NCBI RefSeq assembly: GCF_021404545.1
Contig: NZ_JAAWWD010000003.1
Coordinates: 124,001-188,000, forward strand
Direction: 5' to 3'
DNA from: Aestuariivita sp.
Lineage (GTDB): Bacteria; Pseudomonadota; Alphaproteobacteria; Rhodobacterales; Rhodobacteraceae
DNA length: 64,000 nucleotides
Position numbers and translations under genes: made by a program. Numbering within the stretch: position 1 is the first letter of the stretch; each line of letters begins with the position of its first letter. Below are positions 8,986 to 54,247 of the stretch, piece after piece. The notes beneath the pieces were generated by a model, which saw nothing but the letters and a program-made list of their open reading frames with translations, had not been told where the DNA came from and searched no databases.

Positions 8986-9059
8986 GGCGAGTTGGCGGAG
9001 TGGTGACGCAGCGGATTGCAAATCCGTGTACACCGGTTCGATTCCGGTACTCGCCTCCA
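8986..9059 (+). tRNA. tRNA-Cys (GCA), CCA encoded
   Basis: Acceptor GGCGAGT/ACTCGCC, anticodon loop attGCAaat, TpsiC ggttcgattcc. Confidence 0.97.
9012..9059 (+). repeat. attL, 3' part of tRNA-Cys
   Basis: cggattgcaaatccgtgtacaccggttcgattccggtactcgcctcca, identical to 41397-41444. Confidence 0.95.
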
Positions 9060-18199: not shown

Positions 18200-20611
18200 C
18201 TAGCGACAATTTTGAATGTTGGACGTCTCACACAACCACCTGAGGCCGCTCCTTAAATCATCCGGGCTCTTTGGCATGACACCAACGACTACGCGGGCTT
18301 CAATCATTGCTCTCATCAGGTTTACTTCGCTAGCAAGCATGTCAAACGCAAGAAAGAAGCGGCGTACTTCAGGATGCTGTTGGTTAGTTGCTCTCTCCGG
18401 TTGAGCGGACCAAATATCTGCTGCGTCTCGCAGCCTCAGTAACGGGGCGCAAGAATCGCCGCGAAATTGCAAATCATTATTTCGCTCAAATGAGTTAACC
18501 TCAAAGGCTATATTTCGAGACAGGCGCTGCATGGCCGCCCATACCGTAGCCTCATTTGATGCTGCGACGTCAGAACACGCAGTATGCAGAGATGAAAAAA
18601 ACTTTGAAAGTGCTTCAAAGCTCAGTCTAAGCTCATTCCTAGCATCCAAGTTTTGAATCCTAGCGATGGCACTCTGAAGCTCTATATTCTTTGTTTCAAG
18701 CTGATCATTGAGGTTTTCAAGTTCTGTGTTTTTCGCTTCAAGTTCGCTAAGAGCTTCAACAGCCTGCTGTCTTCGAAACTCCAAACTATCGTTCGAATCT
18801 ACGAGCTTTACTCGCTCCTCTTCTAGAAGCGCAGAGGTTCTATTTGCCTGCAGGTAGAAGTATGAGGCTGTCACCATACCAGCGAAAGCGAAGATAGCAG
18901 CGGCAGATATAACGTACGATCTTACTTTCCTTCTTTTCTGGTCTTCAAGTTCAATTTTTTTCCACTTCTCTATTGAAGCTTTTATGTAACCCGAAATTTC
19001 ACCTAGACCTTGGCGTCCGTGTGTTTGCAAAAGGTATTTTGCATCTTCGATGGGTTTACCTTCTGGAATAAGCAAATCTGAGTCAAAACCGCTTTCCTGG
19101 TATTGAGTGTAGCTGGCACGCATGCGACTAACTTGCAAATGAAACTCAATATCATCGTTCAGCCAATCCCGGAGTGAGGGCCACGAACGGATCAGCTCTT
19201 CATGTGCTATCTCAACAAAATCTGTTTCCGTGCCCGGTTTAGTCACATCGTTTGATCTATAAATCGTTAGGAGGCGACTGTCCCTATCTGATAGCTTCCA
19301 TAAAACTTCCCGTTGCTCGGCGCTGAATTGAGACAGGGGCACACTTAGCTTTACGTCGTTTCCGAACTCGCCGAGATTTACCAAGGCGGGCAAAGTATAC
19401 TTCGCGATCTTCCTTTCGGTGGGTTCTAATTTCTCGATGACCTCATCAGCATGTGTTTTGATGACGTTTCTGACACCACCGAGATTACTGTAAGTCTCGA
19501 ACGTTACTCGATTGAGCTGAAGATCACGTCCAAGCCAGAGCTTTGAAAGTGCGAATTGCATAATCGGGAGCTGACCTTGATCCATGCCAACGTCTTCCAA
19601 TAGCTGATCGATTAGTCCCCTTTCAAATTGTAGGCCTGTTTCTTCCAGTGGCTTCTCCACAGCGGCACGCAGCTGGTCTAAAGCCATCGGCTCTAGATCG
19701 ATGAGATTTGGTTTAAGTAACTTGAAAAACGGCGGCTCCGAGCTTTGAAGTTCTCCATAAAAGTCGCTTCGTACTGTTACTAGGACTTTGACAGCACCCT
19801 TTTGGATGGCCGAGACGATATTTCGTAAGAAAACTGCCCGCTCGATTTCATCGTTATGAACATACAGCTCTTCCCATTGATCGATGAGCAGGACTGGTAT
19901 CTGTCCCGTATTTTGCTGCTTGCCTTCAAGGTAATGATAAAGAGCGTCACTGTCTTCATTAAGTTGGTGAACGAACCGAGCAATGCGCGCTGGTAAATCA
20001 AGCTGTTCTTCAGCAAAAAGCCAAGCATCCAGCGCATGGAAGAGACTTTCAAGCGGTTTAGCTTTGATACGAAATGACAGCAGGGTCCAGCCTGGTCGCT
20101 CTGCCGTGATCAAGGGACAAACGCCAGCAAATGCCAAGGAGGATTTGCCGCTTCCGGAGGCGCCAATTATGCCAACGAGGTTGTATTCCCCCAGACGATC
20201 AAACACCGCCCTTGCTTCATCGTCGCGGCCACCAAAAAACCTAGCGTCTTTGGTGCTAAAGGCCTGGAGACCCTTATAAGGACTCTCATACTCGGAAAAG
20301 GTGATGCTCTCGAAACTGACGCCAAGAATGTAAGCAAGGCTTCTTAGAAGGTTCTCCTCGAACAAGTCGTCCGATCGGGTCTCAACATTGCTGAGCCAAC
20401 CGTTGCCGAATTCGTTGATCCATACCGGTGGCGTCTCGCCCTTGAATTTAGCCAAGGCTTCTCGGTCAGCCGAAAGATTAGCGATGTACTGCTGAGAAGC
20501 TTTCTTCCCGTCTAGGAGCTTCTCACGGAGCTTCCTGATCAGCTTCCCATTCGCTTTTACACTGGTCAAATCCCAAAACCCTTTCTGAAAACACAACCCA
20601 AGAGTACCCAA
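18200..20611 (-). CDS. nSTAND-type P-loop ATPase with N-terminal HTH-like region and C-terminal TM/coiled coil
   Basis: FFGGRDDEARAVFDRLGEYNLVGIIGASGSGKSSLAFAGVCP; IPVLLIDQWEELY; TM VISAAAIFAFAGMVTASYFYL; true start likely downstream of ORF start. Confidence 0.8.
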   Translation of the reverse strand: MGTLGLCFQKGFWDLTSVKANGKLIRKLREKLLDGKKASQQYIANLSADREALAKFKGETPPVWINEFGNGWLSNVETRSDDLFEENLLRSLAYILGVSFESITFSEYESPYKGLQAFSTKDARFFGGRDDEARAVFDRLGEYNLVGIIGASGSGKSSLAFAGVCPLITAERPGWTLLSFRIKAKPLESLFHALDAWLFAEEQLDLPARIARFVHQLNEDSDALYHYLEGKQQNTGQIPVLLIDQWEELYVHNDEIERAVFLRNIVSAIQKGAVKVLVTVRSDFYGELQSSEPPFFKLLKPNLIDLEPMALDQLRAAVEKPLEETGLQFERGLIDQLLEDVGMDQGQLPIMQFALSKLWLGRDLQLNRVTFETYSNLGGVRNVIKTHADEVIEKLEPTERKIAKYTLPALVNLGEFGNDVKLSVPLSQFSAEQREVLWKLSDRDSRLLTIYRSNDVTKPGTETDFVEIAHEELIRSWPSLRDWLNDDIEFHLQVSRMRASYTQYQESGFDSDLLIPEGKPIEDAKYLLQTHGRQGLGEISGYIKASIEKWKKIELEDQKRRKVRSYVISAAAIFAFAGMVTASYFYLQANRTSALLEEERVKLVDSNDSLEFRRQQAVEALSELEAKNTELENLNDQLETKNIELQSAIARIQNLDARNELRLSFEALSKFFSSLHTACSDVAASNEATVWAAMQRLSRNIAFEVNSFERNNDLQFRGDSCAPLLRLRDAADIWSAQPERATNQQHPEVRRFFLAFDMLASEVNLMRAMIEARVVVGVMPKSPDDLRSGLRWLCETSNIQNCR

Positions 20612-40130: not shown

Positions 40131-41258
40131 TCACCCGGACCCAACTACGTTGTTGATGTAGTTATCGTAACCGACCATCGCGGCCTGCATCTCTTCAAAG
40201 TACGAGTGTCGGTTGTACACAGCCGCCACGCCGCTGATTGTCCCCGATACATGGTTCAGCAGCTTTTCGGTCACATGGATTGGTGTGCCAATCTTGGCGT
40301 GGATCGTTGCGAAGGTACGCCTGAGGTCATGTAGGGTGTACGGCCCGACCTCTTCCAGTCCTTCGTCAAAGCGGGCTTTGTGCCACGCAAATGTTGTGAA
40401 CGGTTTTTCAAAGTTGGTTGCCGCTGGGAACAGCAAGTCACCGGTATCTGGCAGCGCATCGATTTCCGCTTGGGCCTTAGGCGACAAAGGAAATCTGTGC
40501 TCTCGCTTGTTCTTTGCAAATCCTTCAGGAAACGTCGCCGAGCCGTCGATGATCCAGGAGCGGCGCATTTGCCCAACTTCCGTCCGGCGTTGGCCTGTGA
40601 GAATCAGAAGCATGAGTAGTGGTCCGAACGGAAAAGGTGTTTCTTCTGCCCGTCGATAGATTTGTCGTAACTCACCGTCGGTCAACACCCGGTTACGCTC
40701 ATGGGTCTTTTGCTTCATCGGCGGTACGACCGAGTGCTCAATGAGACCGTGTCGCACGCACCAGTTCATCATCGTCCTGATCGCGACAAAGGCATGTGAC
40801 TGTTCAGATGGGGTGGCGGACAGTCCAAAAATCACTTTCATGACCTGTTTGCGCTCAACGGACTGTATATCACCAACAAAGTTGAAGTGTCGGTCCAGTA
40901 GGCGCTTGTAGTCATTGTAGGTGCGGGGCTTGTTTCGGCGCGCGCTGTCTTCGAGGAAGCGCACTTTCGCCTCAGCGAACGAAATCGGCGCCGCGCTTAA
41001 AGGAAGCTGTCCATCTGCCTCTAGCCCACTTGCCGCTAGCAATTGCCTCGCTTGTTTTCGCGCATCAGCCAGAGACAGGCCTGGGTATCTACCCAACGTC
41101 TTGCGGCGGCGCTTCTCACCGAGCAGCACGATATATGACTTGCTGCGCGTCGAACATCGCACACCAAAGTTAGGCGTCAACTCATCCCAGTATGTTACCT
41201 GTCCACTCTCAGACAACGGCAGCTTTCGTACGGCTAGGTCGGTTAGGCGGGTACGCAT
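40131..41258 (-). CDS. Tyrosine integrase of the tRNA-Cys island (DUF4102-type N-term)
   Basis: VRCSTRSKSYIVLLGEKRRRKTLGRYPGLSLADARKQA; TGQRRTEVGQM; LHDLRRTFATIHAKIGTPIHVTEKLLNHVSG. Confidence 0.95.
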   Translation of the reverse strand: MRTRLTDLAVRKLPLSESGQVTYWDELTPNFGVRCSTRSKSYIVLLGEKRRRKTLGRYPGLSLADARKQARQLLAASGLEADGQLPLSAAPISFAEAKVRFLEDSARRNKPRTYNDYKRLLDRHFNFVGDIQSVERKQVMKVIFGLSATPSEQSHAFVAIRTMMNWCVRHGLIEHSVVPPMKQKTHERNRVLTDGELRQIYRRAEETPFPFGPLLMLLILTGQRRTEVGQMRRSWIIDGSATFPEGFAKNKREHRFPLSPKAQAEIDALPDTGDLLFPAATNFEKPFTTFAWHKARFDEGLEEVGPYTLHDLRRTFATIHAKIGTPIHVTEKLLNHVSGTISGVAAVYNRHSYFEEMQAAMVGYDNYINNVVGSG

Positions 41259-41396: not shown

Positions 41397-41444
41397 CGGA
41401 TTGCAAATCCGTGTACACCGGTTCGATTCCGGTACTCGCCTCCA
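41397..41444 (+). repeat. attR, partial tRNA-Cys copy
   Basis: Exact 48-bp copy of 9012-9059. Confidence 0.95.
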
Positions 41445-41525
41445 TATTTTTCAATGGGTTAGCCCACTTACCTTTGCCAGGGGTATCAACGTGGGTATCA
41501 GTTTCCCGTTCTGTGCTTGTTCTGT

Positions 41526-42545
41526 TCATTTGCGCTTTGCCGCAGCTTGACGTGCTCGCATGATCTGTCTCGCCTCCCCCGCATACTTGATAATCATCGC
41601 TTTCGACGTGTGACCGCTGTAACTGGCGATCTCGTCATCGGTGCATCCAGCCCACGCCAATTCCATCACACCGCGATAGCGCAGGGCGTGTTGATCGAAG
41701 GCCATCAGCCCCAGCCGTTTACGTTCGCGCACCATGACGCGCGCCATCGCGTGATAGTCCATCGCCGAGCCATCGGCCCGCGTCAGGATGTGCCGCGACG
41801 GGTGCGGTGCGAAGGCGAAATCAGCCTTGGCACGGTCCAGCGCGGCTTTGAGCGCCTTGGTGCAAGGAAGGTGCAGCGGCGTATCGGTCTTGTTCTGGCG
41901 CAGCTTGAGGGTTTCCCCGTCATAATCGCCCCATTGGAAGTCAACCCAATCGCCGGGGCGCTGGACACTGCCCACGCCAATCTCAAAGATCAGCAGCGGC
42001 AGTGCATCGCCTTCGGCGCGCATCTTGTCCACCGCCCAATTCGCCCAGGGCAAGTGTGGTTTCTGCCGAGCCTTTGGCACCTTGAGCGGCTCAATATCAA
42101 TCGCCGGGTTATCCTTGCGCCACCGCTTGCGGATCGCCAGTTTGGACAACATGCTGATCGCGGTCGGGATGTAGTTGGCAAACCGGACGCGGTGCCGATT
42201 CTTTTCCATCGCATCGTAAATGTCGGCTTGAGTAAGCCGCGCCACGTCCGCATGACCAATCTTGTCCTTGAGGTATTCAAAGACAGGCTCAAGGTCTTTG
42301 CGGTAGCGTGGCGAGAAATTGGCCCACCTGTCGGTTTCCCGCATGGCCTCGATCAGTGCGCCCCATGAGGTTTTCGCCGCAGCTTTCTTGCCGCTCACGA
42401 TCTCCCAATACTGACGGTCAAATTCGGCGGTGCCTTCGTCCGCCTCGATCCGGCCCAGATAGATCATCTTGCCGTTCATGTACTTGCGGACATACCACCG
42501 GCCAGCCGGATGCTGCCAAAGGAGTTTCTTGCGAGGCGTCACCAT
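41526..42545 (-). CDS. Phage-type tyrosine integrase
   Basis: YVRKYMNGKMIYLGRIEADEGTAEF...QHALRYRGVMELAWAGCTDDEIASYSGHTSKAMIIKYAG. Confidence 0.85.
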   Translation of the reverse strand: MVTPRKKLLWQHPAGRWYVRKYMNGKMIYLGRIEADEGTAEFDRQYWEIVSGKKAAAKTSWGALIEAMRETDRWANFSPRYRKDLEPVFEYLKDKIGHADVARLTQADIYDAMEKNRHRVRFANYIPTAISMLSKLAIRKRWRKDNPAIDIEPLKVPKARQKPHLPWANWAVDKMRAEGDALPLLIFEIGVGSVQRPGDWVDFQWGDYDGETLKLRQNKTDTPLHLPCTKALKAALDRAKADFAFAPHPSRHILTRADGSAMDYHAMARVMVRERKRLGLMAFDQHALRYRGVMELAWAGCTDDEIASYSGHTSKAMIIKYAGEARQIMRARQAAAKRK

Positions 42546-42745
42546 TCGATCACCCCGGCACCGTTAGCCAAATCACCAGACGCTATCGCGCGCAGTTGCT
42601 CCACGTCCCAACGCTCGAACCCGCCGATTTCGGCAGGCTTCGGCAAGACACCTTCATCCACCAACGCGCGAAAGTCGGCGGGCTTCATGTCCAGAAGTTT
42701 GGCGGCGCTGCGTTCTGCGACAAAAAGGGGTCTGTGATTAGACAT
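42539..42745 (-). CDS. Small AlpA/excisionase-like HTH protein
   Basis: LFVAERSAAKLLDMKPADFRALVDEGVLPKPAEIGGFERWDVEQLRAI; overlaps int start. Confidence 0.75.
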   Translation of the reverse strand: MSNHRPLFVAERSAAKLLDMKPADFRALVDEGVLPKPAEIGGFERWDVEQLRAIASGDLANGAGVIEW

Positions 42746-42756
42746 GGCAAATGCTC

Positions 42757-43302
42757 CTATGCCTTGGCCAAGGCGCGATATCTCTCATCCAATACTTCAA
42801 AGGGATGCAGGCCAAGGCGACGGCAAACTCTGCCAAAGACCTTCGATGCGTTTACCACAACAAAGCTATCCAGATCACCAATAGGACCACCCAGATAGCC
42901 CATAGCTTCATCAAGCGCCTGATTGCTGCGATTGTGGCAACCGATCCAATGTCCGATGCCGCCGACAATCATCAAAGTGTCGCCGTATTCTTGGTGCATC
43001 GGGAGCCCAGGGACCCGCAAGTGATCCATATCGTCAGTGCTTCCGAAGTGTGCGAAGTGAGGCGATTTGGCGAAAGCTTCCTTAGGGTTCATTCCTGCAT
43101 CGACCAGCGCTTTGGCAATCGCGAAGTCCATTACGTGTCGGAAGGTATAGCGGCGAGCCTTACCCTGCGCGCCGCCGCCTTCGGGCTGGTGGCTTTTTCC
43201 TGTAATGCAATATCGGGCGTTCCAAAGCTGAAACTTCTCCTTGGGAATGTCGCAGATCTGCGCGACTTGCGCCGTCGAAAACCTGAGTTCGTCCAGTTCC
43301 AT
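42757..43302 (-). CDS. MerR-like HTH regulator
   Basis: LRFSTAQVAQICDIPKEKFQLWNAR...ARRYTFRHVMDFAIAKALVDAGMNPKEA. Confidence 0.65.
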   Translation of the reverse strand: MELDELRFSTAQVAQICDIPKEKFQLWNARYCITGKSHQPEGGGAQGKARRYTFRHVMDFAIAKALVDAGMNPKEAFAKSPHFAHFGSTDDMDHLRVPGLPMHQEYGDTLMIVGGIGHWIGCHNRSNQALDEAMGYLGGPIGDLDSFVVVNASKVFGRVCRRLGLHPFEVLDERYRALAKA

Positions 43303-43316
43303 TTTCTCTATCCCTA

Positions 43317-43334
43317 AAATATCATGTGATATTT
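43317..43334. promoter_or_regulatory. Perfect dyad upstream of MerR-like gene
   Basis: aaatatca-tg-tgatattt. Confidence 0.55.
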
Positions 43335-43435
43335 ATTTGTGCCGCGTCACGCCACAGCTGTCAATTGTTTTGTCAAAGCTATTGGTTCAATGCACAAACA
43401 AGGCGCAACGGATCACTCCCAGTATAGGAAGGGGT

Positions 43436-43876
43436 TCACGCCTGATACGGCTCATGAAGCGGATGAAACTGGCGAGAAATGTCGCGTGCTCGGGTTATGG
43501 CGTCTTCAAGCTTATCTAAGCCCTCCAAACTGCGAATTGCCAACCAGTAGACGGCATCGCTCATCTGATCGCCATCCGCTAGGGCATTGTGCATGGCGAG
43601 TTGGCAGATAAGTTCCATTGCCGCTCTGGGTGCACAGCTCGGTTCGAGGATGTCTTTGGTGTCCTCAAGCGTTTGGTAAATGTCCGCCAGTGCTTTTCTA
43701 GGCTTCTTAGGTAGGCTCTGCTCATATCTTTCTTGCTGTTGACGCAGCGCCGTCACCTCGGCCAGATGAGTTTCAAAGACGCGGTTGTGAGCAAGTGCTT
43801 GCCCTTTCGTACGTCGGTTTTCCCAATATTGAACAGGACGAGGTTCACTGTTCGCGCGGGCGCGTTCTTTGGTCAT
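43436..43876 (-). CDS. Hypothetical protein
   Basis: Leftward gene from a divergent promoter shared with the XRE regulator. Confidence 0.55.
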   Translation of the reverse strand: MTKERARANSEPRPVQYWENRRTKGQALAHNRVFETHLAEVTALRQQQERYEQSLPKKPRKALADIYQTLEDTKDILEPSCAPRAAMELICQLAMHNALADGDQMSDAVYWLAIRSLEGLDKLEDAITRARDISRQFHPLHEPYQA

Positions 43877-43900
43877 TGTCTTGTTCTCCTTGTGTGGTAT

Positions 43901-43940
43901 TGTCCGGAACAGGACATAGCATGATGTCCTAAAGCGGACA
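43901..43940. promoter_or_regulatory. Paired operators TGTCC-N6-GGACA in a divergent promoter
   Basis: tgtccggaacaggaca (43901-43916) and tgtcctaaagcggaca (43925-43940). Confidence 0.7.
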
Positions 43941-43947
43941 GTGTTTT

Positions 43948-44175
43948 ATGACAACTTCTGATCAATTAAGAGCTGCGCGAGCGCTCAAAGCTATGTCGCA
44001 GAGGGAATTGGCGGACCTCATCGGCTCAACAACCAAAACGATAAGGCGCGCTGAGACTGGCACGGACACCGTGTCGCCCCAAACTATACAAGCGATCCGC
44101 GCCGCACTTGAGGCGAAGGGTGTCGAATTTATCGAGGCAAACGGCGGGGGTGCAGGCGTGAGGTTGAAAAAATGA
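43948..44175 (+). CDS. XRE-family repressor-like protein
   Basis: QLRAARALKAMSQRELADLIGSTTKTIRRAETGTDTVSPQTIQAIRAALEAKGVEFIEANGGGAGVRLKK. Confidence 0.85.
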   Translation: MTTSDQLRAARALKAMSQRELADLIGSTTKTIRRAETGTDTVSPQTIQAIRAALEAKGVEFIEANGGGAGVRLKK

Positions 44176-44396
44176 CTAAGGCCGAAGCCGAGCGTATCAT
44201 ACGATACAGCTGCCGCATGTTCGCCGAAGAGCGAGGCATACCGATGAATGGTTCCATCAGACCGAATTTCTATGAGTTTAAGAGTTGGTTGCTCAAGCGC
44301 CACCCCGACGCTCTGGATTTTCGCTGCCGTGGAGGCCCGATGTTCACGGCGCAAAAGTGGGTGGATCAGGAGTTTAATCGAGATCAGTTCAATTAG
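44172..44396 (+). CDS. Hypothetical protein coupled to XRE gene
   Basis: ATGA overlap; MTKAEAERIIRYSCRMFAEERGI. Confidence 0.55.
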   Translation: MTKAEAERIIRYSCRMFAEERGIPMNGSIRPNFYEFKSWLLKRHPDALDFRCRGGPMFTAQKWVDQEFNRDQFN

Positions 44397-44512
44397 ATTG
44401 CGCGCCGCGCCCGCTGGAGGTATGGGCCGCGCGCTGTCGGGGTTGTTGCGGCACTCACCGACTGAACCAGAATGCTATGGGGTGAGCAAAGGAGCCCCGA
44501 GGCGCATTCTGC

Positions 44513-45589
44513 CTATTCTTTCCAATCGACCATGCACATCGCGCCGGACACGTCACCGGGCGGGATGCCCGCTTTTTTCGCCTCGGCCAGCGTCTTGATG
44601 ATCGCCGACAGGGCACGGGCACGTCCGCCAGCGTCGAAGGCTTGCAAGGGCCGGATCGTGTCAATCGTCACCTCGGCCCCGAGCTTGGCGGTCGCTTCAT
44701 CCGCCAGCATCGCGGCGATGGGCTGCAAGGTCCAGATTGCGAGCTGGCGTTGCGCCTCGCGGATCACGGGGCCGGTGGCGGCGCGATTGAAGAATGACGG
44801 CAGGACGCCATAGGCCATGCCGATTCCCTTGCGCGCCGCTGCCAGCGTCTCGTCTGTCATGCTCTTGGACAAGTCCGGCGAAAGCTGATCGGGCTTCTGG
44901 CCGATGGTCGGGTTCATGCCCGCCGCCGTCGCCTGGGCGACACCCTCGATCACCAGCGTTGAGCCGCGCCGCCCTTTGAACGCGCCGCGCATGGTGGCCA
45001 TGTCGTCGGCGCCAGTATCGGGCAAGGGCACGATCTGGCTTCCCAGAGGGGCGTTCTCGAATGTCTCTGCAAGCGCGGCCTCGACCGCATGGAGCATCCC
45101 GCCTGTCAGGCTGGATCGGCGCAGCGGTGCGGTGCCGATCCATGGCGTCAGGTTGTCCACACCGATCCGCAGGTGCAGCACCTCGGCGGCAAGGGCGGTG
45201 ACAGTGCGCCCTCCCCCGGCCTCGGGGATGGACAGGCGATAGGCGCGCGGCTTCCCGTCGCGGGTGGTCACGTCCCAGTCCGTCGCCGAGACAAGGCCCA
45301 ACTCGGTGATCAGATAGACCGCCTCGCCGTTCAAAGCGATGCTTCGGGCGATCATCGCCATGGTTTGCCGGGTCAGCAGGTTGGTTCCGGTCACGTCCGC
45401 CATTGCGAACCCGCCTTCCCAAAGGCTGACGCAGCTCTGCACCGTCGCCGTCAGCTCGGCCACGCCGCGCCGCCCGCTGATGAAGCTGTCCCGCGCCGCC
45501 ATCACTTGCGCGGTGTATCCACCGCCGTTGGACCGCGCCTCGATCGGGCGCAGCTTGTTTATGATCCATTCCAGCATGGTCACCTCCAC
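44513..45589 (-). CDS. HK97-family phage portal protein
   Basis: NLLTRQTMAMIARSIALNGEAVYLI...LRIGVDNLTPWIGTAPLRRSSL; GMAYGVLPSFFNRAATGPVIREAQRQLAIWTLQPIAAML. Confidence 0.9.
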   Translation of the reverse strand: MEVTMLEWIINKLRPIEARSNGGGYTAQVMAARDSFISGRRGVAELTATVQSCVSLWEGGFAMADVTGTNLLTRQTMAMIARSIALNGEAVYLITELGLVSATDWDVTTRDGKPRAYRLSIPEAGGGRTVTALAAEVLHLRIGVDNLTPWIGTAPLRRSSLTGGMLHAVEAALAETFENAPLGSQIVPLPDTGADDMATMRGAFKGRRGSTLVIEGVAQATAAGMNPTIGQKPDQLSPDLSKSMTDETLAAARKGIGMAYGVLPSFFNRAATGPVIREAQRQLAIWTLQPIAAMLADEATAKLGAEVTIDTIRPLQAFDAGGRARALSAIIKTLAEAKKAGIPPGDVSGAMCMVDWKE

Positions 45590-46158
45590 CGGCTTGTGTT
45601 GTTGATCCGAATGAGCGCTCGGCGCACCGTAGGATGATAGGCCCAGTTCCGGGCCTCGATTTGAGCTTGTGGATAGGCGGGTTTCGTCACGGCGCTGATT
45701 TCGATCAGGTCAGCCGCTCGGACTGTGCGCAGGATTGCGTTGCCGCGTTCCTCTACCGTCTCGCCGCCTGGTCGGACGCGGAAGCCGGGTGACAGGCCCC
45801 GCACCAGCCCGGCCGCATGGGCGGACAGGAAGTCCCGCACATAACTGACCTGCTCCATGTCGGCGCTGATCGTCGCGTCAACGGTAAGGGCGTCATCGGT
45901 TTCAGTCAGTGTCAGAGTGCCAGCGGAACGTGACGCCAGCGGCTTGTTGAAGTCGTGACCGGCCAGAAAATGCACGTCCTCGCCGCGTTCCAGCCGATCC
46001 GCGAAGGCACGGGCTGCGATCATCTCACGACGCTCACGCCCTGCCCCCATGCGTTCGGCCAACACAGTTTCCCGGCCATATGGGAAAGTTGCCCGAAGGC
46101 GGGTTTCCCCGCCCTCGGTGCGCAGCTCCAGGCTGCCGACATGAGCGCCCCAGAGCAT
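45580..46158 (-). CDS. HK97-family prohead protease
   Basis: RREMIAARAFADRLERGEDVHFLAGHDFNKPLASRSAGTLTLTETDDAL...EISAVTKPAYPQAQIEAR; start trimmed to MLWGAHV. Confidence 0.9.
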   Translation of the reverse strand: MLWGAHVGSLELRTEGGETRLRATFPYGRETVLAERMGAGRERREMIAARAFADRLERGEDVHFLAGHDFNKPLASRSAGTLTLTETDDALTVDATISADMEQVSYVRDFLSAHAAGLVRGLSPGFRVRPGGETVEERGNAILRTVRAADLIEISAVTKPAYPQAQIEARNWAYHPTVRRALIRINNTSRWR

Positions 46159-47426
46159 TAGGCTGCCAGCTCCAGGCCGGTCAGCAGTTCGAGCTGGGCT
46201 GGGCGCGCTTCCGTCACGTCCATCGTCGCAAGGGCAGTGATCCGCAGCCCGCCGGACTGTGCATCGCTGTAGGGGTCGCGGATCATGTCCACCGCGCCCC
46301 ATGCGCCAATGAAGATCGGAGCCACCCCGCCCGCTGCGGTGGTCAACAGCGAAGACGTGGCCTCGGGGATGCCGGACGGCGCGGCGAGCGCGTTGTTCGT
46401 CATGGCGATGTTGGCCGAGGGCAGGTTTTTCACCAACCGGTCCCATTCGGACACCGCTGTGCCGCTGATCAGAACGCTGTCCAGATAGTCCCAAAGTTCG
46501 GGGCGGATCAGTGCCCGCACCGCGTCCGGCGAACCGGCGGCATTGGCGGTCATGAACCGGGTGACTGCCGAGCGGAACGCGCCCCAGCTCGCCAGTGCAT
46601 CCACCGCCGTGGACGTGATGCCGTACGTCGCAGCACCGGTGATGACTCCGAGCGGTTGGCCGTTGGCCCCGGTGCCGAGGAATGCCGCCTGATCCATCGC
46701 CGCGCCCATTGCCCCGCTCATATCGCGCCGCACCGCCTGTTCCAGCGCCGCGCCGGACTGTTTCAGCGTCTTGCGGGTGATGCGCATCTGAATGCCGAGG
46801 TTGTGATCCGGCGACATGGCGCGGTCGGTGGTGGCATAGGTGGTCGGCCCAGCCACGTTGGCCGTCTCGCCGTCCGCCCAGCCTGCTGTGACCGCCGAGG
46901 TAGTCACCGGCCACTCCACAGCGCCCGCGTCGATGCTGATCATCTGCGCCCCCATGCGTGCCGCCACGCTGTCCGGGAACAGGCGGTCGAAGATGGGGCG
47001 GGTCTGGATCGGGTTGGGGGTGCCGCTGGCAACCGTCTCACCGGCCCGGACTTCCAGCGCCTGCCACGGCACGGGAATGCCCCGGAAACCGCCCGAGTTG
47101 CGCAACTCGGTCACGATCTCCGCCGTCTGGCCGTCCAGTTGCCGCCCTTCATCGAGGGCCAGCGCGACCTGGCGCATCTCGAAACCGGCCATCAGCTCGG
47201 CCCATTCCTGGGCGGAGCGGGTCTCAAGCTCGTCGCCCGCGTCCCGGCGTTCGGTATCCTCGGCAATCAGGGCTGCACGATAGCGGGTTTCGTTGGAACG
47301 GTATTCCCGGTCCAGTTCGTCCATCTGCCGGACTTCATCCTCGGATGGGGCTTCCTTACCCGCCAGCTCGGCGAGGTTCTGGCGGATTTCGCTTTGCCGC
47401 CGGGCGATCTTCACAGATTCGAGCAT
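46158..47426 (-). CDS. HK97-family major capsid protein
   Basis: N-term coiled-coil delta-like region; IQMRITRKTLKQSGAALEQAVRRDMSGAMGAAMDQAAFLGTGANGQPLGVI. Confidence 0.92.
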   Translation of the reverse strand: MLESVKIARRQSEIRQNLAELAGKEAPSEDEVRQMDELDREYRSNETRYRAALIAEDTERRDAGDELETRSAQEWAELMAGFEMRQVALALDEGRQLDGQTAEIVTELRNSGGFRGIPVPWQALEVRAGETVASGTPNPIQTRPIFDRLFPDSVAARMGAQMISIDAGAVEWPVTTSAVTAGWADGETANVAGPTTYATTDRAMSPDHNLGIQMRITRKTLKQSGAALEQAVRRDMSGAMGAAMDQAAFLGTGANGQPLGVITGAATYGITSTAVDALASWGAFRSAVTRFMTANAAGSPDAVRALIRPELWDYLDSVLISGTAVSEWDRLVKNLPSANIAMTNNALAAPSGIPEATSSLLTTAAGGVAPIFIGAWGAVDMIRDPYSDAQSGGLRITALATMDVTEARPAQLELLTGLELAA

Positions 47427-47429
47427 GGT

Positions 47430-47765
47430 TTATCCTTTCTGCTCAATAGGGGTGCCGGGTCGCTCAAGCGCCTCGACTGCTTCCCGCCAGTTTTGGCGGT
47501 CCTCTCGGGGCGGGGGATGCCCGCACTCGATCCTTGTCTTTCGGGTGTGGCAACCGGGGCAAAGCGCCTGAAGGTTGCGCGGCTCATAGGACAGCTCGGG
47601 GTGCGTCCTGACCGGTTTGACGTGATCCACTTCCAGCCGCCCGCCGCAGCCACATGAGCGGCAGCGGTAACGGTCGCGTTCGAGGATCTCCGCGCGAAGT
47701 ACCTTCCAGCGTTTCGTGCGGGTGACGTGCCGCGAATGCCGTTTATGTTCCTTGCGGATGCTCAT
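47430..47765 (-). CDS. HNH endonuclease
   Basis: ILERDRYRCRSCGCGGRLEVDHVKPVRTHPELSYEPRNLQALCPGCHTRKT. Confidence 0.92.
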   Translation of the reverse strand: MSIRKEHKRHSRHVTRTKRWKVLRAEILERDRYRCRSCGCGGRLEVDHVKPVRTHPELSYEPRNLQALCPGCHTRKTRIECGHPPPREDRQNWREAVEALERPGTPIEQKG

Positions 47766-47869
47766 GGGATTTGATCCGTCTGGGCGGTGTTTTCGAGAAA
47801 AGCGCCGCTGCCTAGGACTACCTTGACGCCGCCGATTTCGTAGGTGATGCCCTCGTGGTTCAAAACCAT
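47762..47869 (-). CDS. 35-aa phage small protein
   Basis: MVLNHEGITYEIGGVKVVLGSGAFLENTAQTDQIP; overlaps terL end and HNH start. Confidence 0.5.
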   Translation of the reverse strand: MVLNHEGITYEIGGVKVVLGSGAFLENTAQTDQIP

Positions 47870-49563
47870 TGCATCCTCGCTTTCGCTTTGGGTTGTGCTG
47901 TGATCCGCGCTCCTTGCGCGACGGCCAGAACCGATGCCGCCGCGGCGTCGATCCGGCCCGTAGATCGGGCCTTCGCAATCTTGATGTTGTTCGCCGGGTC
48001 GCGCAGGCACACCGTGTCCGCAAAGGCCGAGCGCAGAAGCAGGGACGGCTTGGCCTTCACCAGCCCGTCAAAGGCGGCGCGACGGAACCGTTCCGCATCC
48101 TCGCCACGGTCCCGGAAGCCCTGACCGCGCCAGACCAGCGGCGCGCGGATGCCCGCCCGGCTGATCGCTTCACCCAGCTCGGCCTGCTTGTAGCGGTCCA
48201 TGGTGATCGCGATGACGGGCTGATCCTCGACATGGCGCATCACCTCGACCAGCCACGGGGCCACCGGCACGGTCTTGTCGCCGAGAACCGAAAGCTCCCC
48301 CCGGTCGTGCATCTCGACATAGCGACCGGCCACGCCGTCCGTCTGGCCGCGATCCAAGAGGCTGGGCATGGACGGGAAGGTGCCAAGACACTCAAGCCGC
48401 CCCGTCTCGGGCCAGTAGAACGCCGCCGCCGTCATCGAGGCCGAACCGCCGAGGTCGATCCCGATCACAACACCGCCTTCGCGGGATGGCAGCGCCGAGG
48501 TTTCGCAGCCGAGCCATTCGTCCAGGGTGATCAGCAGGTCACGCGATTCCCCGGATACACGCTCATTGCGGTTGTAGAGCCGGAAGCTGGTGAGGCTGGA
48601 ACCGCCCCGCGCAATGGCCCGCTTCGCTTGCGCTTCCAGCCATTCCAGCGAACCGCCGATGCCATGAGGCGCGCCGGGGTTGGCGATCAAAAGGCTTTCC
48701 GCGTCATCGGCTGGCAGGCCGGGCGCGGGCCGATGCTCTTGAACGTATGAGCCGGGCGACGGATCGTCGATCCACCGGGAAAAGGGGTGCGTGTCGTCGC
48801 TGGCGCTGGTGCTGATCAGGAAAGCCCGGCCCTCGCGCTTGCCCAGACCGGACAGCAGCGCGTGTTCCAGCTCGTCGCCGCGATCAAGGGCCCAGTGCCC
48901 GCGCTCGTCAAGGATTGCCATCGTCGGTGCGCCGCCGAGGGCCGATTTACCGTCCGCCGCGATCACGCGAAGGACATGCCCGCCACCGTCGCCCTCAAAT
49001 TCGATTTCGAGGCGCGGGGCCCGGCGGTAGATCAGGCGGCGCTGCACCTCAAGCGGCAGGGTGGCGGCAAACCCGGCCACGAAGTCCCAGATAATGCGCC
49101 CCTGATCGCGGGTCCGCGCGGCTGCGATGATCTCGCGCCGGGGCTGTCGGTCCCAGACGCCAACAAGACCGCCGAGCGCAAGTCCCGCCGTGATCGCGGA
49201 TTTGCCGTTGCCGCGCCCGATGCTGAGAATGGCGTTGGCGGTCGTGTCAGCCATCGCGCCTTCGATGAATTGGCGCTGAAAGGGGGCGAGCGTGACAGGC
49301 TTTCCGGCGTTCGGTCCCTCGGGAATTTGCAGGCTATGCATGAATTGCATAGCTCGATCTGCCGGGGCCGCGTTTTCCGCCTCTGCGCCGGGCGCGAAAA
49401 TTGAGGAGTTAGACACACGGTTACCCGTATTTGCCAAAGTCGCGGCATTGGGACCAGATGCAAAGAGGTCAGCCTGTTGATGATCGGAACGACGCGGTGC
49501 AGGCGAAAGGATCGAACCATCCGCCTTGCGCCATGATCTTGCTTTCTTCGCTGCCTCTGTCAT
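47860..49563 (-). CDS. Phage terminase large subunit
   Basis: AMQFMHSLQIPEGPNAGKPVTLAPFQRQFIEGAM; ILSIGRGNGKSAITAGLAL; VVIGIDLGGSASMTAA; start set at MTEAAKK. Confidence 0.92.
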   Translation of the reverse strand: MTEAAKKARSWRKADGSILSPAPRRSDHQQADLFASGPNAATLANTGNRVSNSSIFAPGAEAENAAPADRAMQFMHSLQIPEGPNAGKPVTLAPFQRQFIEGAMADTTANAILSIGRGNGKSAITAGLALGGLVGVWDRQPRREIIAAARTRDQGRIIWDFVAGFAATLPLEVQRRLIYRRAPRLEIEFEGDGGGHVLRVIAADGKSALGGAPTMAILDERGHWALDRGDELEHALLSGLGKREGRAFLISTSASDDTHPFSRWIDDPSPGSYVQEHRPAPGLPADDAESLLIANPGAPHGIGGSLEWLEAQAKRAIARGGSSLTSFRLYNRNERVSGESRDLLITLDEWLGCETSALPSREGGVVIGIDLGGSASMTAAAFYWPETGRLECLGTFPSMPSLLDRGQTDGVAGRYVEMHDRGELSVLGDKTVPVAPWLVEVMRHVEDQPVIAITMDRYKQAELGEAISRAGIRAPLVWRGQGFRDRGEDAERFRRAAFDGLVKAKPSLLLRSAFADTVCLRDPANNIKIAKARSTGRIDAAAASVLAVAQGARITAQPKAKARMQWF

Positions 49564-49623
49564 CGTGTTCACTCTCGCGTGTCTCTTTTCGTTCAATCGT
49601 TGCTCACTTGGCCCTCTGCTCAC

Positions 49624-49957
49624 TGGTGAGGGTTGCTGTGACGGTCAGAAAGCGGGTTACTCCAGCGGGGTTGAAAACCCGCCTCCCGCCCTGACCGCCG
49701 CGATCTTGCCTGCTCACCGGAGCCGGGCCGCCGCTTAGGCCAGACCTGCCTTTCCCCCGGCTCGGTCCGCACTCCCATGTTCACCGCCTTGGAGGGTGGC
49801 AGTGGGGCCTTGGGGCGTGGAGTGACCGCACGACGCGGAATAGCTGCCCTTGTGCTTTGGCCCGTTACCCGGTAGCACTGTGATGCGTCAGCCCCGGCTA
49901 ACCCGTGAACGCCGACTGCCGCATGGCCCGCCGCTGCAACGGCGGGCTTTGTTTTTT
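49624..49957 (+). ncRNA. Candidate structured noncoding RNA or packaging-site region
   Basis: ~330-bp gap in a compact operon; nested stems GGTCAG/CTGACC and GCGGGTT/AACCCGC; plus-strand terminator at its end. Confidence 0.35.
49926..49957 (+). terminator. Strong plus-strand intrinsic terminator
   Basis: gcccgccg-ctgcaa-cggcgggc-tttgtttttt. Confidence 0.8.
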
Positions 49958-49958
49958 C

Positions 49959-50189
49959 TCACCTCTCGATCAGTTCAACGTCAGGCTCGGAGCCGGTGCC
50001 CAGCTCGGACACCAGCCGCCGCATGATCTGCTCTTGCTTCATCGTGGGACGCCACGCCGCCCGCTTGCCGTGCCGGGCGATGGACCGCACGAACCCTTGC
50101 AGCCATTCGTCGGTGCCGTCCGCCATCACCCGCCGCACCACCAACGGCCAGCGGAAGGTCAGGATTTCATCAAGCTCGCGGTCGGTCAT
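49959..50189 (-). CDS. Hypothetical phage protein
   Basis: MTDRELDEILTFRWPLVVRRVMADGTDEWLQGF; overlaps head-tail connector end. Confidence 0.6.
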   Translation of the reverse strand: MTDRELDEILTFRWPLVVRRVMADGTDEWLQGFVRSIARHGKRAAWRPTMKQEQIMRRLVSELGTGSEPDVELIER

Positions 50190-50734
50190 ACCTGCACCCC
50201 GCGATAGCGCGCGCTCACGCGGGCCATGTGGGGGGACGTGGTGAGGGACTTGGCGTCCATCGGCGACCTGCCGTCATAGTGCAGCGCGGCCTGATCCATG
50301 AGGGCCTGGGCGAGATCGGCAGGCACGTCCGCCGCCGCCGGTCCAAACCCGGCCTGATATTCGATGATGACGCGGCTGGGGGTGAGGTCGTGATAGCTCG
50401 CCAACCAGCGGATGTAGGGCCGGGTGCCGCCCACGAAGTCAAAGGCGGTGAACGCTTCGCCGTCGATGGTTACGCTCGGCACGTCTTCGTCCGCCACCGG
50501 CCCGATGGGTAGGCTCAAGCCATGCTCTTGTGCCGGGTTGAAGATCGTCACCCTGATCGTTTGCGTCAGCAGCGCGATTTGGGCGAATTGCTCGATTTCC
50601 GCCGCCGCCGTCAGGCCGATGTTCTGAATGGCATTGTCTTCGGCGTCGGCATCCACCCGGATGTGCCACTTGAGGTCATCAAGGATGAAGGGCAGCGCAG
50701 AGCCACCCGCAATCCGGTGCACAAGCATCTTCAT
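50186..50734 (-). CDS. Phage head-tail connector (gp6-like)
   Basis: LDDLKWHIRVDADAEDNAIQNIGLTAAAEIEQFAQIALLTQTIRVTI...DLAQALMDQAALHYDGR. Confidence 0.85.
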   Translation of the reverse strand: MKMLVHRIAGGSALPFILDDLKWHIRVDADAEDNAIQNIGLTAAAEIEQFAQIALLTQTIRVTIFNPAQEHGLSLPIGPVADEDVPSVTIDGEAFTAFDFVGGTRPYIRWLASYHDLTPSRVIIEYQAGFGPAAADVPADLAQALMDQAALHYDGRSPMDAKSLTTSPHMARVSARYRGVQV

Positions 50735-50997
50735 GCGGCGATCTCCACTTCGGAAATGTGTTTGCGGAATGCCATCTGGTCGCGTTCGGGCAAGGCTTCA
50801 TATGCCGCCAGTGCATAAGCCTTGCGCTCTTTCAGAGAGGCGAAGGAAGCCCACCAGCGCGCATCGTCCATCGGATTGAGGAAGGTCGGCAGGGGGTAAT
50901 CGGCGAAGGACAGGACCGCTTCGGCGACCTGCTCGGCCTGTTCCGGGGTATCGAGCGCCCGAAGTGCCGCCCATGCCAGTGCGGCGCGCTCTTCGAC
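50731..50997 (-). CDS. Unlisted ORF with unresolved start (alternative start or frameshift)
   Basis: Open frame VEERAALAWAALRALDTPEQAEQVAEAVLSFADYPLPTFLNPMDDARWWASFASLKERKAYALAAYEALPERDQMAFRKHISEVEIAA*; TGA overlaps connector ATG. Confidence 0.45.
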   Translation of the reverse strand, partial: VEERAALAWAALRALDTPEQAEQVAEAVLSFADYPLPTFLNPMDDARWWASFASLKERKAYALAAYEALPERDQMAFRKHISEVEIAA

Positions 50998-50999
50998 GG

Positions 51000-51272
51000 T
51001 TAGCCAAGAAGAGACGCTACACCAAAGGCGGCGGCCAAGATCGCGCCGACGGTGGTAAAGCCGTGAATGACAAAGGCGCGGTACATCTCGGCCCGCAGTT
51101 CAACGAGATCGGTTCGCACCTCGTTGATGTCGGCCCGGGTTGCGAGATCACCCTCGACCCGAGCAGCCTGCACGGTCGCCACGATTTCCGCCGCCAAGTC
51201 AGCACTTGCGCCTTTCTGTTGCAAGCGCTGTACGGCGGCATGTGTATCATTGATGATGATTGACGTGTTCAT
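51000..51272 (-). CDS. Small coiled-coil protein with C-terminal TM
   Basis: MNTSIIINDTHAAVQRLQQKG...ATRADINEVRTDLVELRAEMYRAFVIHGFTTVGAILAAAFGVASLLG. Confidence 0.65.
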   Translation of the reverse strand: MNTSIIINDTHAAVQRLQQKGASADLAAEIVATVQAARVEGDLATRADINEVRTDLVELRAEMYRAFVIHGFTTVGAILAAAFGVASLLG

Positions 51273-51587
51273 ATGTGCCTGAATTGTATCACACTTTTCG
51301 GTTCTTGTATGACCTGTGGAGAGGACCCGCCGGTGACATCGGCTCACACGCGCTGTGTGTTATCCTAAGCAGCGTTTTCAGCAAAGGTGGGGGTCACTTC
51401 GTTTTTGGTGGGAAAAGCGCGTAGCGGGGCATTGTTGGGGCTCTGGTGGCGTGTTGTTTACGCTGGGAGGCAGGGTCTTTAGCCGCCTTGCCGACCTGAC
51501 CCTTTCTGAATTTTTATTCGAGAATTTGTTTATCTGTTTTTGTTTTAGTCTCAGCGTCTTAGTAGTTGTTTATAGTAGTCGGGAATT

Positions 51588-51679
51588 CTTACCGAACCAG
51601 GACGGTAAACCTTACCGGACTGGGTGCCCCATTCTTACCGGCCTAGAACGGTAAATCTTACCGGTCTGCAACGGAACCA
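51588..51679 (+). repeat. Four 23-bp iterons
   Basis: cttaccg at 51588, 51611, 51634, 51657; units 1 and 3 contain cttaccg...acggtaa. Confidence 0.85.
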
Positions 51680-51686
51680 TTGCGAC

Positions 51687-52076
51687 CTAAGCCGCCCCTG
51701 CCTGTTCCCTCTCCAACTCTTTTTGCACGTCCCTCAAGACAGGTGCCTCGTCGTTGATGACGTAGATGTTGTGCAAGCCCCGCCCCTGCTTTTTCACTTC
51801 GATCATTTGCAGGTCTTGCAGCTCGGCCAGATACTTGCGGATTGACTTTTCATTCGTGCCGATGTCGCGCGCCAGCCGTTCCTGCGCAGGAAAGCAGAAG
51901 CCGTCCTGCCACGCGTAGTCGAGAAGGGTCGCGAATGTGATCTTCGCCATCGGAGAAATGCGCTTGCCCGCCCGGATCACCACGCGCGGCAATTGCGCGA
52001 AGCCGCTCGCAAGCAACGGGTTTGCTTTTTTGAAGCGCACAGTGCGCGCCTTCATGAGGTCTTCCATCGATGCCAT
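51687..52076 (-). CDS. Winged-helix replication/regulatory protein
   Basis: SPMAKITFATLLDYAWQDGFCFPAQERLARDIGTNEKSIRKYLAELQDLQMIEVKKQGRGLHNIYVI. Confidence 0.7.
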   Translation of the reverse strand: MASMEDLMKARTVRFKKANPLLASGFAQLPRVVIRAGKRISPMAKITFATLLDYAWQDGFCFPAQERLARDIGTNEKSIRKYLAELQDLQMIEVKKQGRGLHNIYVINDEAPVLRDVQKELEREQAGAA

Positions 52077-52085
52077 GTCCGAGAA

Positions 52086-52931
52086 TTATACCCTATGCCA
52101 ACCCGGTTCCGGCTGTTGATATCTACTGGCCGGATTGTGCTCTGGAGGAGTTGGCTGCTCGGTCGGCGACATCTCTGCTTCTTCGGTAAACCGCACGGGC
52201 TCGGATGGTTCGGTGCGAGACGACACCCCACTCAGCGCCAATGCCTTGTTCGCTTCGGCCTGCATTTCAAAACTGCGGACAACACGGTCGATTGTCTTGA
52301 GTGCTTCGTCGGTTGACGTCGCCCGGCGCTCCACTTCGGCCTGCGCCTTGTCGAGTTGCCCGCGCAAGAACGCGATCTCTTCTTCCTTGTCGCGCAATCG
52401 TTCCCGCACCTCTTCGAGAACATTCGCGGACACCCCTGCTGGTCGGATGTCAACCGAACCCGTGCGCACGGGTTCGGACGCGTTCGCACGCGGTTCGTCG
52501 GTCTTTGAAGGCTTCTGATCAGAGTTTGTCTCTGAGATCATGCCTGCACCGGTTCGAACAGGTTCGAACGTGTTCTCAGGTTCGACCGTGGTATTTTCCG
52601 CCGTTTCGGTCGCACCCGTGCGCACCGGTTCGGACGCGTTCGCACCGGCGAGAGATAGTTCTTGATCGACCTTGCGCGCCAGGGAAGCCTTCTCGATCTT
52701 CCACCGGTAGCTCCACATCGTATCTTCGCGCCGCACGGTGATATCCGCGTCCTCCTTGTTGTAAGAACGCTCCGCCCACTTTCGGAGGGTCTTCGGGGTC
52801 CGAGACAGACCACGTTCCGCACAGAAGGCGACAGCCTCATCGACGGTCAGCCACTCATATTCTAAAGGGTTTTCAGGGGTTCGCACTGGTTCGGACGGGT
52901 GCGAACTCGTTTGATTTATTGGCACGTTCAT
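52086..52931 (-). CDS. HTH plus coiled-coil protein with SEPVRTG repeats, Rep-like candidate
   Basis: EWLTVDEAVAFCAERGLSRTPKTLRKWAER HTH; five (S/F)EPVR motifs; C-term coiled coil. Confidence 0.65.
   Translation of the reverse strand: MNVPINQTSSHPSEPVRTPENPLEYEWLTVDEAVAFCAERGLSRTPKTLRKWAERSYNKEDADITVRREDTMWSYRWKIEKASLARKVDQELSLAGANASEPVRTGATETAENTTVEPENTFEPVRTGAGMISETNSDQKPSKTDEPRANASEPVRTGSVDIRPAGVSANVLEEVRERLRDKEEEIAFLRGQLDKAQAEVERRATSTDEALKTIDRVVRSFEMQAEANKALALSGVSSRTEPSEPVRFTEEAEMSPTEQPTPPEHNPASRYQQPEPGWHRV
52192..52906 (+). repeat. Five dispersed ~27-bp repeats embedded in the CDS
   Basis: tgcgcaccggttcggacgcgttcgcac-type copies near 52192, 52462, 52545, 52618, 52879. Confidence 0.75.
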
Positions 52932-52965
52932 ATGTGGTTCAGTTTACCATGCCGAACCGGACGAG

Positions 52966-54111
52966 TTACTTGCCCGTCAGAAAATCCGCCCACTGTTCCA
53001 ACAACACGCGGCGCTTCTCCAACAAGTCACTCCGCTGATACGCGCGTTCAACCTCGCTTCCAACTTGGTGACCGAGGGCGGTTTCTTTCACCTCGAACGG
53101 CGTGTCGGTCGTCTCTTCCACCCACGTTCGAAATGTCGCCCGGAACCCGTGCGGTCGGGCCTCCATCTCCTCGCGTTCCATCAATCGGCTCATGGTGGCG
53201 TCGGACATTGCTTTCCCTCGCGGGGACGGGAAGAGGTAGTCAGACCCGACGATGACGGGGCGGGTGTCGATGACGCGCAGCGCCTCGGGCGACAGTGGTA
53301 CCCGATGCGCCGTTGCGGTCTTTGTCCGCTTTGGGTCGAGCGTCCAAACGTTATCCTCGATCTCGTCTGGCACGGCAAACCGCACTTCACTCGTGCGCGC
53401 GACTGTCAGCATCAAAAACCGCAGCGCGTACGCAGACGGGAAACTCTGTGCAGAGAGCCAGCGGTAGAAACTTGGGGCCTCGCGGTAGGGGAGAGAGGGG
53501 ATGTGTTTGGTCTGATGCCGCCGCTTCCCAAGGAGCGCCTGAGCTTTCATCACCGCTTGCAGATCGACGTCGAGCCCGAGTGCGGCGGCGTGCTTCAAGG
53601 TGAGGTTCATCCGGTTCATCGCCTTACGCGCGGTGTCGGCTTTCTCGTGCCAGATCGGTTCAAGCGTCTTCTTGAGAACGTGCTGGTCGATGTCTTCAAC
53701 CGCCATCGTTCCGATCTTCGGGATCACATGCACCGACAGGGGAGACAGCCATCGACCTGCTCGCCCATCGTTCTTGAGCTCGGCCTGGCGGGCCACGAAG
53801 CACCGCTCAATCGCATCCGCTACTGTCAGCCGTTGCTCCCGCCGAAGCGCCACTTGTCGCGCCTGGATCGGATCGACCCCATCACGCAGTTGGCGACGTG
53901 CATCAGACGCCCGCTCCCGCGCTTCAGAAAGGGACACATCCGGCCAGCGTCCCAGACCCATTTCGCGTCTTTTTCCGGCAACGATGAGGCGCAACATCCA
54001 CTTGCCAGCTTCTTTCCGGCTCTTCACCAACATCAAACCTTGGCCGTCAAAGTGCTTTCCCGGCCCGAGCGACTTGATCTTTAAGTGTGATAGCGCGTTG
54101 ATGTTGGTCAT
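52966..54111 (-). CDS. P4-type tyrosine integrase adjacent to tRNA-Phe
   Basis: KRREMGLGRWPDVSLSEARERASDARRQLRDGVDPIQAR; TVARTSEVRF; RPHGFRATFRTWVEE; start at MTNINALSH. Confidence 0.92.
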   Translation of the reverse strand: MTNINALSHLKIKSLGPGKHFDGQGLMLVKSRKEAGKWMLRLIVAGKRREMGLGRWPDVSLSEARERASDARRQLRDGVDPIQARQVALRREQRLTVADAIERCFVARQAELKNDGRAGRWLSPLSVHVIPKIGTMAVEDIDQHVLKKTLEPIWHEKADTARKAMNRMNLTLKHAAALGLDVDLQAVMKAQALLGKRRHQTKHIPSLPYREAPSFYRWLSAQSFPSAYALRFLMLTVARTSEVRFAVPDEIEDNVWTLDPKRTKTATAHRVPLSPEALRVIDTRPVIVGSDYLFPSPRGKAMSDATMSRLMEREEMEARPHGFRATFRTWVEETTDTPFEVKETALGHQVGSEVERAYQRSDLLEKRRVLLEQWADFLTGK

Positions 54112-54247
54112 CTGGCCCCTTTTTTGGACCACCTTAACATCTGAAAAACAATGGGTCAGCATATTTCTGCATGGTCAGAAAACGCCACATAAGTCCTTGG
54201 TTTAAGGTTCTTTATACGGAAATATGAAGATGAATGAGAGTATTTAA

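Follow-up and report, generated by a model that had tools for sequence, protein, structure and literature searches.

The 64-kb stretch of Aestuariivita sp. DNA considered here (G000:C68:124001-188000; hereafter the window, in whose positions all coordinates are given) contains, at 41397-51003, a head-gene element that very likely represents a capsid-forming phage satellite, present here as a damaged copy. The element belongs to a family of widespread units of ~10 kb, found mostly in marine alphaproteobacteria, which possess a virus head of their own and no tail, and which would probably spread with tails borrowed from other phages. The family is regarded as one of satellites, and not of decayed prophages, because 31 relatives bounded by attachment (att) sites share their size and core gene order, contain no recognized tail-shaft genes, and show signs of purifying selection.

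A family of tail-less elements with paired attachment sites

A search with the capsid protein retrieved 49 loci in named genomes and 97 viral contigs, 80 of which were kept. Among 397 genomes of the Rhodobacteraceae, 40 carry the capsid at ≥54% identity, and 62 do so if weaker matches are included. An att pair adjoining a tRNA gene is present at 32 loci, 31 of which measure between 9317 and 10862 bp (median 10087 bp, standard deviation 348 bp); the odd one, L036, is 6.6 kb long, lacks the protease and portal genes, and targets tRNA-Leu. The 31 elements are inserted at tRNA genes for nine amino acids (Cys, Thr, Glu, Phe, Arg, Lys, Asn, Met, and Ser), and their genes, which were predicted with a simple codon-based caller, follow the same core order throughout, with the integrase at the opposite end in some members. 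Intact members reside in culturable strains, among them Roseovarius lutimaris DSM 28463 (L004) and Thioclava sediminum TAW-CT134 (L008). Major capsid protein (MCP), protease, portal, head-tail connectors, large terminase subunit (TerL), and HNH nuclease are all encoded in the relatives, as are an integrase and a specific att site, which is paired in the 31 relatives and single in the window copy. At one locus, L049, the first element is directly adjoined by another set of terL, HNH, and capsid genes that is only distantly related (29-33% identity; 18417-20218).

The 115 non-core open reading frames (ORFs) of the relatives, scanned against PHROG and Pfam, include integrases, excisionases, replication initiators, head-closure proteins, and neck proteins; neither a tail-shaft nor a lysis family is found among their 25 commonest families, and the same holds for the top families in the flanks of further loci. 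The ratio of nonsynonymous to synonymous substitution (dN/dS) has medians of 0.18-0.41 for the head and packaging genes, values that are approximate given that synonymous sites are near saturation, and that indicate purifying selection on the head genes. A tailed relative with the same head module was found neither in the genome nor in the viral-contig or phage collections. The head-closure protein shares 43% and 41% identity with its counterparts in the Paracoccus siphophages Pthi1 and Shpa, while the capsid is at most about 30% identical to any of 50,697 phage records, TerL reaches about 29% at best among the phage records listed, and the adaptor has no match in them.

Limits, genes, and damage of the window copy

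The limits of the element emerge from a comparison with L052, a copy of the same host locus, in which host DNA continues through the end of tRNA-Phe and is followed by 549 unrelated bases and then by the equivalent of 51002-41397 at 99.8% identity. On the integrase side, the att site is placed at 41397-41444 (plus strand), where the 3' end of tRNA-Cys is repeated exactly over 48 bp, because an intact tRNA-Cys is adjoined by a homologous integrase in L027, L028, L016, and L020; the tRNA-Cys gene of the window itself lies at 8986-9059, away from this copy. In L027, L016, and L020, a 47-bp att copy is also present directly before the adaptor-side genes, so that these elements run from att to att over ~10 kb. 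An earlier reading of the window, made from the sequence only, had drawn the unit from 41470 to 54247 and had counted replication-type genes among its parts. Both points have to be corrected: the segment 51003-54247 (minus strand) is missing entirely from the L052 copy of the locus and is therefore a different module, located beside tRNA-Phe and outside the element. It is this module that contains a coiled-coil ORF (51000-51347), iteron-like CTTACCGG repeats (51585-51670), an HTH_36 initiator-like protein (51687-52076), a further ORF (52086-52931), and a P4-type integrase (52966-54162). In the genome assembly, the 3' end of tRNA-Phe is not duplicated, and the module is apparently the remnant of another element whose second att was lost.

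The genes of the element were identified by hidden Markov model (HMM) scans (Pfam, PHROG) of the window ORFs, and they agree with the sequence-only reading in its list of integrase, AlpA/MerR/XRE-type regulators, portal, protease, HK97 capsid, HNH, terL, and head-tail connector, as well as in the lack of recognizable tail, holin, and lysin genes, for which the scans of the window unit returned zero matches. On the minus strand, the order of transcription is adaptor, o76, TerL, HNH, MCP, protease, and portal, followed by the divergent XRE gene, the MerR-like and AlpA-like genes, and the integrase. The element begins with c6 (50731-51003), the head-tail adaptor (50186-50734; phrog_442), and o76 (49959-50189), a conserved three-helix protein that is also seen in relatives; a fold search with c6 and o76 gave no match to a known fold, the c6 model being only moderate. 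A noncoding stretch on the same strand (49624-49958) encodes the covarying, pseudoknotted RNA described below and precedes TerL (47860-49623; PF03354 and PF20441, phrog_9), a head-closure gene remnant (Hc1, 47762-47869; PF05521 in relatives), the HNH endonuclease (47430-47756), the HK97-type MCP (46158-47426; PF05065, phrog_617), the S78 prohead protease (45580-46158; PF04586, phrog_80), and the portal protein (44513-45589; PF04860), all on the minus strand. Next to these lie two plus-strand genes, encoding the small hypothetical protein o74 (44172-44396) and an XRE/Cro-CI type regulator (43948-44175) that is divergent from the head operon. The remainder, again on the minus strand, consists of the hypothetical protein o146 (43436-43876; present in several relatives), a MerR-like regulator whose match is weak and below the Pfam cut-off (42757-43302), an AlpA-like excisionase or regulator (42539-42745; weak MerR_1 match, with relatives matching HTH_17/AlpA), and a tyrosine integrase of the tRNA-Cys type (41526-42545), which is 93% identical to the integrase abutting tRNA-Cys in L027 and L028.

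The sequence-only reading had implied an intact unit, which does not hold for the window copy. Compared with L004, c6 starts mid-frame at 51003, with its first ~34 codons gone, and the start of c6 and the distal end of the element are therefore missing; the distal att was not found in the genome, which holds only two known tRNA-Cys ends. In addition, the head-closure gene has suffered an in-frame deletion of 78 codons; L052 is the only other locus where it is shortened, and 56 loci have it at full length. Because one att, the start of c6, and most of the head-closure gene are gone, the window copy is probably unable to act as a satellite.

Three integrases are clustered in this part of the window. 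One of them (40131-41258) belongs to a separate island of ~32 kb in tRNA-Cys (about 9060-41396), which lies between the tRNA-Cys gene and the att site of the element. Ten large ORFs of this island were scanned, with PADLOC matches to mads_8 (two genes), NsnA/PD-T4-2, PD-Lambda-1, and a caspase-like protein, and the island looks like a defence island. In L052, the DNA past the tRNA-Cys att differs from that of the window, and another HTH_36-like gene begins there (14796-15237); the tRNA-Cys site seems to gather different islands in tandem. A search for the empty site in G280, a genome of the same genus, gave matches that fall on short contigs.

A structured RNA and exchangeable head modules

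The RNA between o76 and TerL is about 330 nt long and occurs in two types of very different sequence: type I, as in the window, and type II, found at L003:7243-7572 and in relatives. The core of the window copy matches model R1 at 49735-49878. Type I comprises 44 base pairs, including three pseudoknots, which are formed in 98.9% of cases, and 17 exhibit changes in both partners vs 1.7 in shuffles, the alignment having been fitted to the nested helices only. Type II has the same helix arrangement minus one small hairpin, with 97.9% of pairs formed and 16 double-changed pairs vs 6.5. Free-energy folding by itself is unremarkable (z about -1.4), which is why the case for the RNA rests on covariation. 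The large bacterial RNAs GOLLD and ROOL are linked to prophages. Like the RNA of the element, they are structured; they are large bacterial RNAs of unknown function (PMC12286853). The RNA of the element, at about 330 nt, has a helix arrangement of its own and gave no match to Rfam.

In the elements compared, the RNA and a replication gene do not occur together at this position. The HTH_36 genes of relatives sit between adaptor and TerL, which is the slot of the RNA in the window element, and a replication gene occupies the slot in 11 of 13 elements without the RNA vs none of the 19 elements with it, a contrast that is less independent than it appears, as the elements are related. Three weak replication matches in RNA-bearing elements (E 0.0003-0.007) belong to a regulator close to the integrase; they are not counted in the zero of 19, whereas the Fisher test of the contrast included them and is thus conservative. 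Strong-scoring matches among the 397 family genomes number 8 for type I and 28 for type II (about 36), and some copies lie in integrative elements without a capsid, near serine recombinases and a restriction-modification gene. In L042, a near-identical type I RNA (6981-7125) accompanies head proteins of a divergent clade and an integrase at the other end, which suggests that the RNA moves between elements. A role as a stand-in for the small terminase subunit (TerS), similar to the phi29 pRNA, was considered and dropped as the leading idea, since cousins with a lambda-type head have both the RNA and TerS; the occurrence of the RNA in other integrative elements, as mentioned above, weakens the packaging idea further. 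Judged from its genomic contexts, a replication or regulatory role would be likelier than one in packaging.

The lambda-type cousins show directly, in several genomes, that head modules are exchanged on a common chassis. In G065 and G216, c6, o76, and the RNA are located at one end and the AlpA-like/c11 and integrase genes at the other (the stretch of G216 examined ends before the integrase), and between them lies a lambda-type head consisting of TerS (phrog_57), TerL (phrog_15), portal (phrog_21), and a fused protease-capsid protein (phrog_4523), to which G065 adds a phrog_2545 adaptor. TerS is thus encoded in these cousins, unlike in the HK97-type members, where none is recognized. The same lambda-type set is found in G312 and G154, in G240 an element of the HK97 type lies next to one of the lambda type, and G266 has a distant HK97 set (27-33% identity). 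Tail-less lambda-type elements on the same chassis were also noted in L217, L218, L252, L257, and L258. A tentative and rather doubtful extension of these observations is that a ~10-kb chassis of c6, o76, pseudoknotted RNA, AlpA, and integrase swaps unrelated HK97-type and lambda-type heads, and that in most members the structured RNA has replaced a protein replication initiator in both position and function, perhaps as an RNA origin or primer; the function of the RNA is a guess from position.

Competing explanations and a possible mode of life

The sequence-only reading had proposed the class of capsid-forming satellites, with a decayed prophage as the main alternative. The capsid-making, tail-less part of that proposal is borne out by the 31 att-bounded relatives of near-constant size and identical core order, while its coordinates and the extra module are not. 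Indeed, the conserved tail-less copies that were to be sought in Rhodobacteraceae were found, and relatives in which the module is contiguous with tail genes, named as the finding that would speak against it, were not. That the family descends from an ordinary tailed phage by loss of tail, lysis, and replication genes is very unlikely: the window copy does decay, as its missing att, truncated c6, and deleted head-closure gene attest, but independent decay would not be expected to leave the same tail-less genes and paired att sites at many different tRNA genes, the head genes appear to be under purifying selection, and a full-length tailed parent with the same capsid was not found among phages, viral contigs, or genomes. 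Less probable still is a complete mini-virus whose tail-less heads infect unaided. The relatives would provide it with complete head and packaging genes and no tail genes, but in HK97/SPP1-type phages the usual, well-established role of portal, adaptor, and head-closure proteins is to join the tail, the most similar head-closure proteins are those of siphophages that infect related hosts, and genes for receptor binding or lysis are not recognized.

Fainter again is the chance that the entire stretch of 41.4-54.2 kb forms a single larger element that has two integrases and an HTH_36/iteron module of its own for replication. Its genes are adjacent and mostly on the same strand, and some relatives hold HTH_36 initiators internally, but these occupy the adaptor-TerL slot that the RNA fills in the window, the breakpoint at 51003 cuts c6, and everything beyond it is absent from L052. 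The least probable explanation is a domesticated capsid that serves the host in the manner of a gene transfer agent (GTA); the capsid is common in Rhodobacteraceae, a family known for GTAs, but integrase, paired att, and many insertion sites argue against it. Two further points against it are the patchy presence of the capsid and the existence, at another place in the genome, of a separate HK97 capsid with a stronger match to Pfam. A tail module in the same genome was considered as a helper and not used, being a single tape-measure match on a 9.9-kb contig that is GTA-like by gene sizes only. Several points weigh against the satellite explanation itself. The helper dependence and tail theft that it proposes are inferred from the comparison of genes. 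The scans of non-core ORFs show the 25 commonest families only, so that a rare tail gene could hide, though the size leaves little room; the 92 related viral contigs, none of them longer than 15.6 kb, count in favour of it, but their lengths partly reflect provirus trimming; and no TerS profile match was obtained in the window unit or among the families listed for HK97-type relatives. Moreover, a ~17-kb tRNA-Arg element headed by c6-o76 (G047:C14; L254/L261) carries a head, major tail protein (tail tube), tail terminator, and tape measure, with no baseplate or lysis genes seen among the genes scanned; it shares only the first two small genes with the window element, and its capsid, 24% like that of the window, is unrelated.

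Among known systems, the satellite is close to the capsid-forming phage-inducible chromosomal islands (cf-PICIs), which are described as bringing capsid, protease, portal, and connectors together with HNH and the two subunits of the terminase, and as depending on a helper for tails only (PMC10690885). Like cf-PICIs such as EcCIEDL933, it is small and integrated, with capsid, protease, portal, connectors, TerL, HNH, AlpA-like gene, and integrase, and without tail or lysis genes. Two Sakai regions examined in search of EcCIEDL933 proved to be other prophages, Sp1/Sp2 and Sp6. However, known cf-PICIs average 14 kb and occur mainly in Enterobacteriaceae, Morganellaceae, Pasteurella, and Firmicutes groups (PMC10803314), whereas the present elements measure about 10 kb, reside in Alphaproteobacteria outside that host list, have no recognized TerS in their HK97-type members, and in most cases hold a structured RNA at a position that is taken in others by a replication gene. 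The Mulch/Flayer satellites of Streptomyces likewise encode capsid formation and packaging with no recognized primase, and MulchRoom uses a tail of helper length (PMC10690885); compared by description only, they differ in their virulent helpers, terminal repeats, TerS, and unrelated hosts. The cf-PISP satellite-plasmids of Vibrio combine capsid, portal, protease, adaptor, closure, HNH, and terminases without tails, but are episomal, with parA/repA, and gammaproteobacterial (PMC13230959). PICMI, which are likewise small, integrated, and marine satellites, also possess integrase and AlpA; they differ in inserting at fis and in lacking genes for a capsid and for packaging (PMC10803314). Satellites are absent from the main text of a survey of Rhodobacteraceae prophages (PMC8224337). 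The GTAs of this family share HK97-fold heads and bacterial family with the element, but are fixed clusters with tails and without integrase or att, and the capsid gene of the element is distinct from the other HK97 capsid gene of the genome. Overall, the comparison supports an element that works like a cf-PICI, filed here as a new alphaproteobacterial variant and not as a proven member, the likeness being one of gene content.

In HK97-type assembly, portal, protease, and capsid proteins make the head, and a siphovirus tail that was assembled beforehand attaches to the neck formed by adaptor and head-closure proteins. Intact members of the family would integrate as ~10-kb circles into tRNA genes, at the 3' end, by means of their integrase; once there, an XRE-type repressor probably holds the element silent and the AlpA-like protein probably aids excision. 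In the presence of an active helper phage, the element could build its own procapsid from portal, protease, and capsid, its DNA, a unit of ~10 kb, might be packaged by its TerL and HNH nuclease, and adaptor and head-closure proteins would form the neck to which the siphovirus tail of the helper binds. A tail from the helper fits the phage comparisons, because the tail-facing head-closure protein resembles siphophages while capsid and TerL are far from phage records.

If intact members behave in this way, capsid-making tail thieves with unusually small genomes would reach a dominant marine bacterial group, and about 10% of the sampled family genomes carry the capsid of the element. The tight 10-kb size, the siphophage-like tail-facing protein, and the exchange of heads would make it possible to test in culturable strains how satellites acquire heads and match them to foreign tails, and the same elements would likewise make replication without a recognized initiator protein testable.

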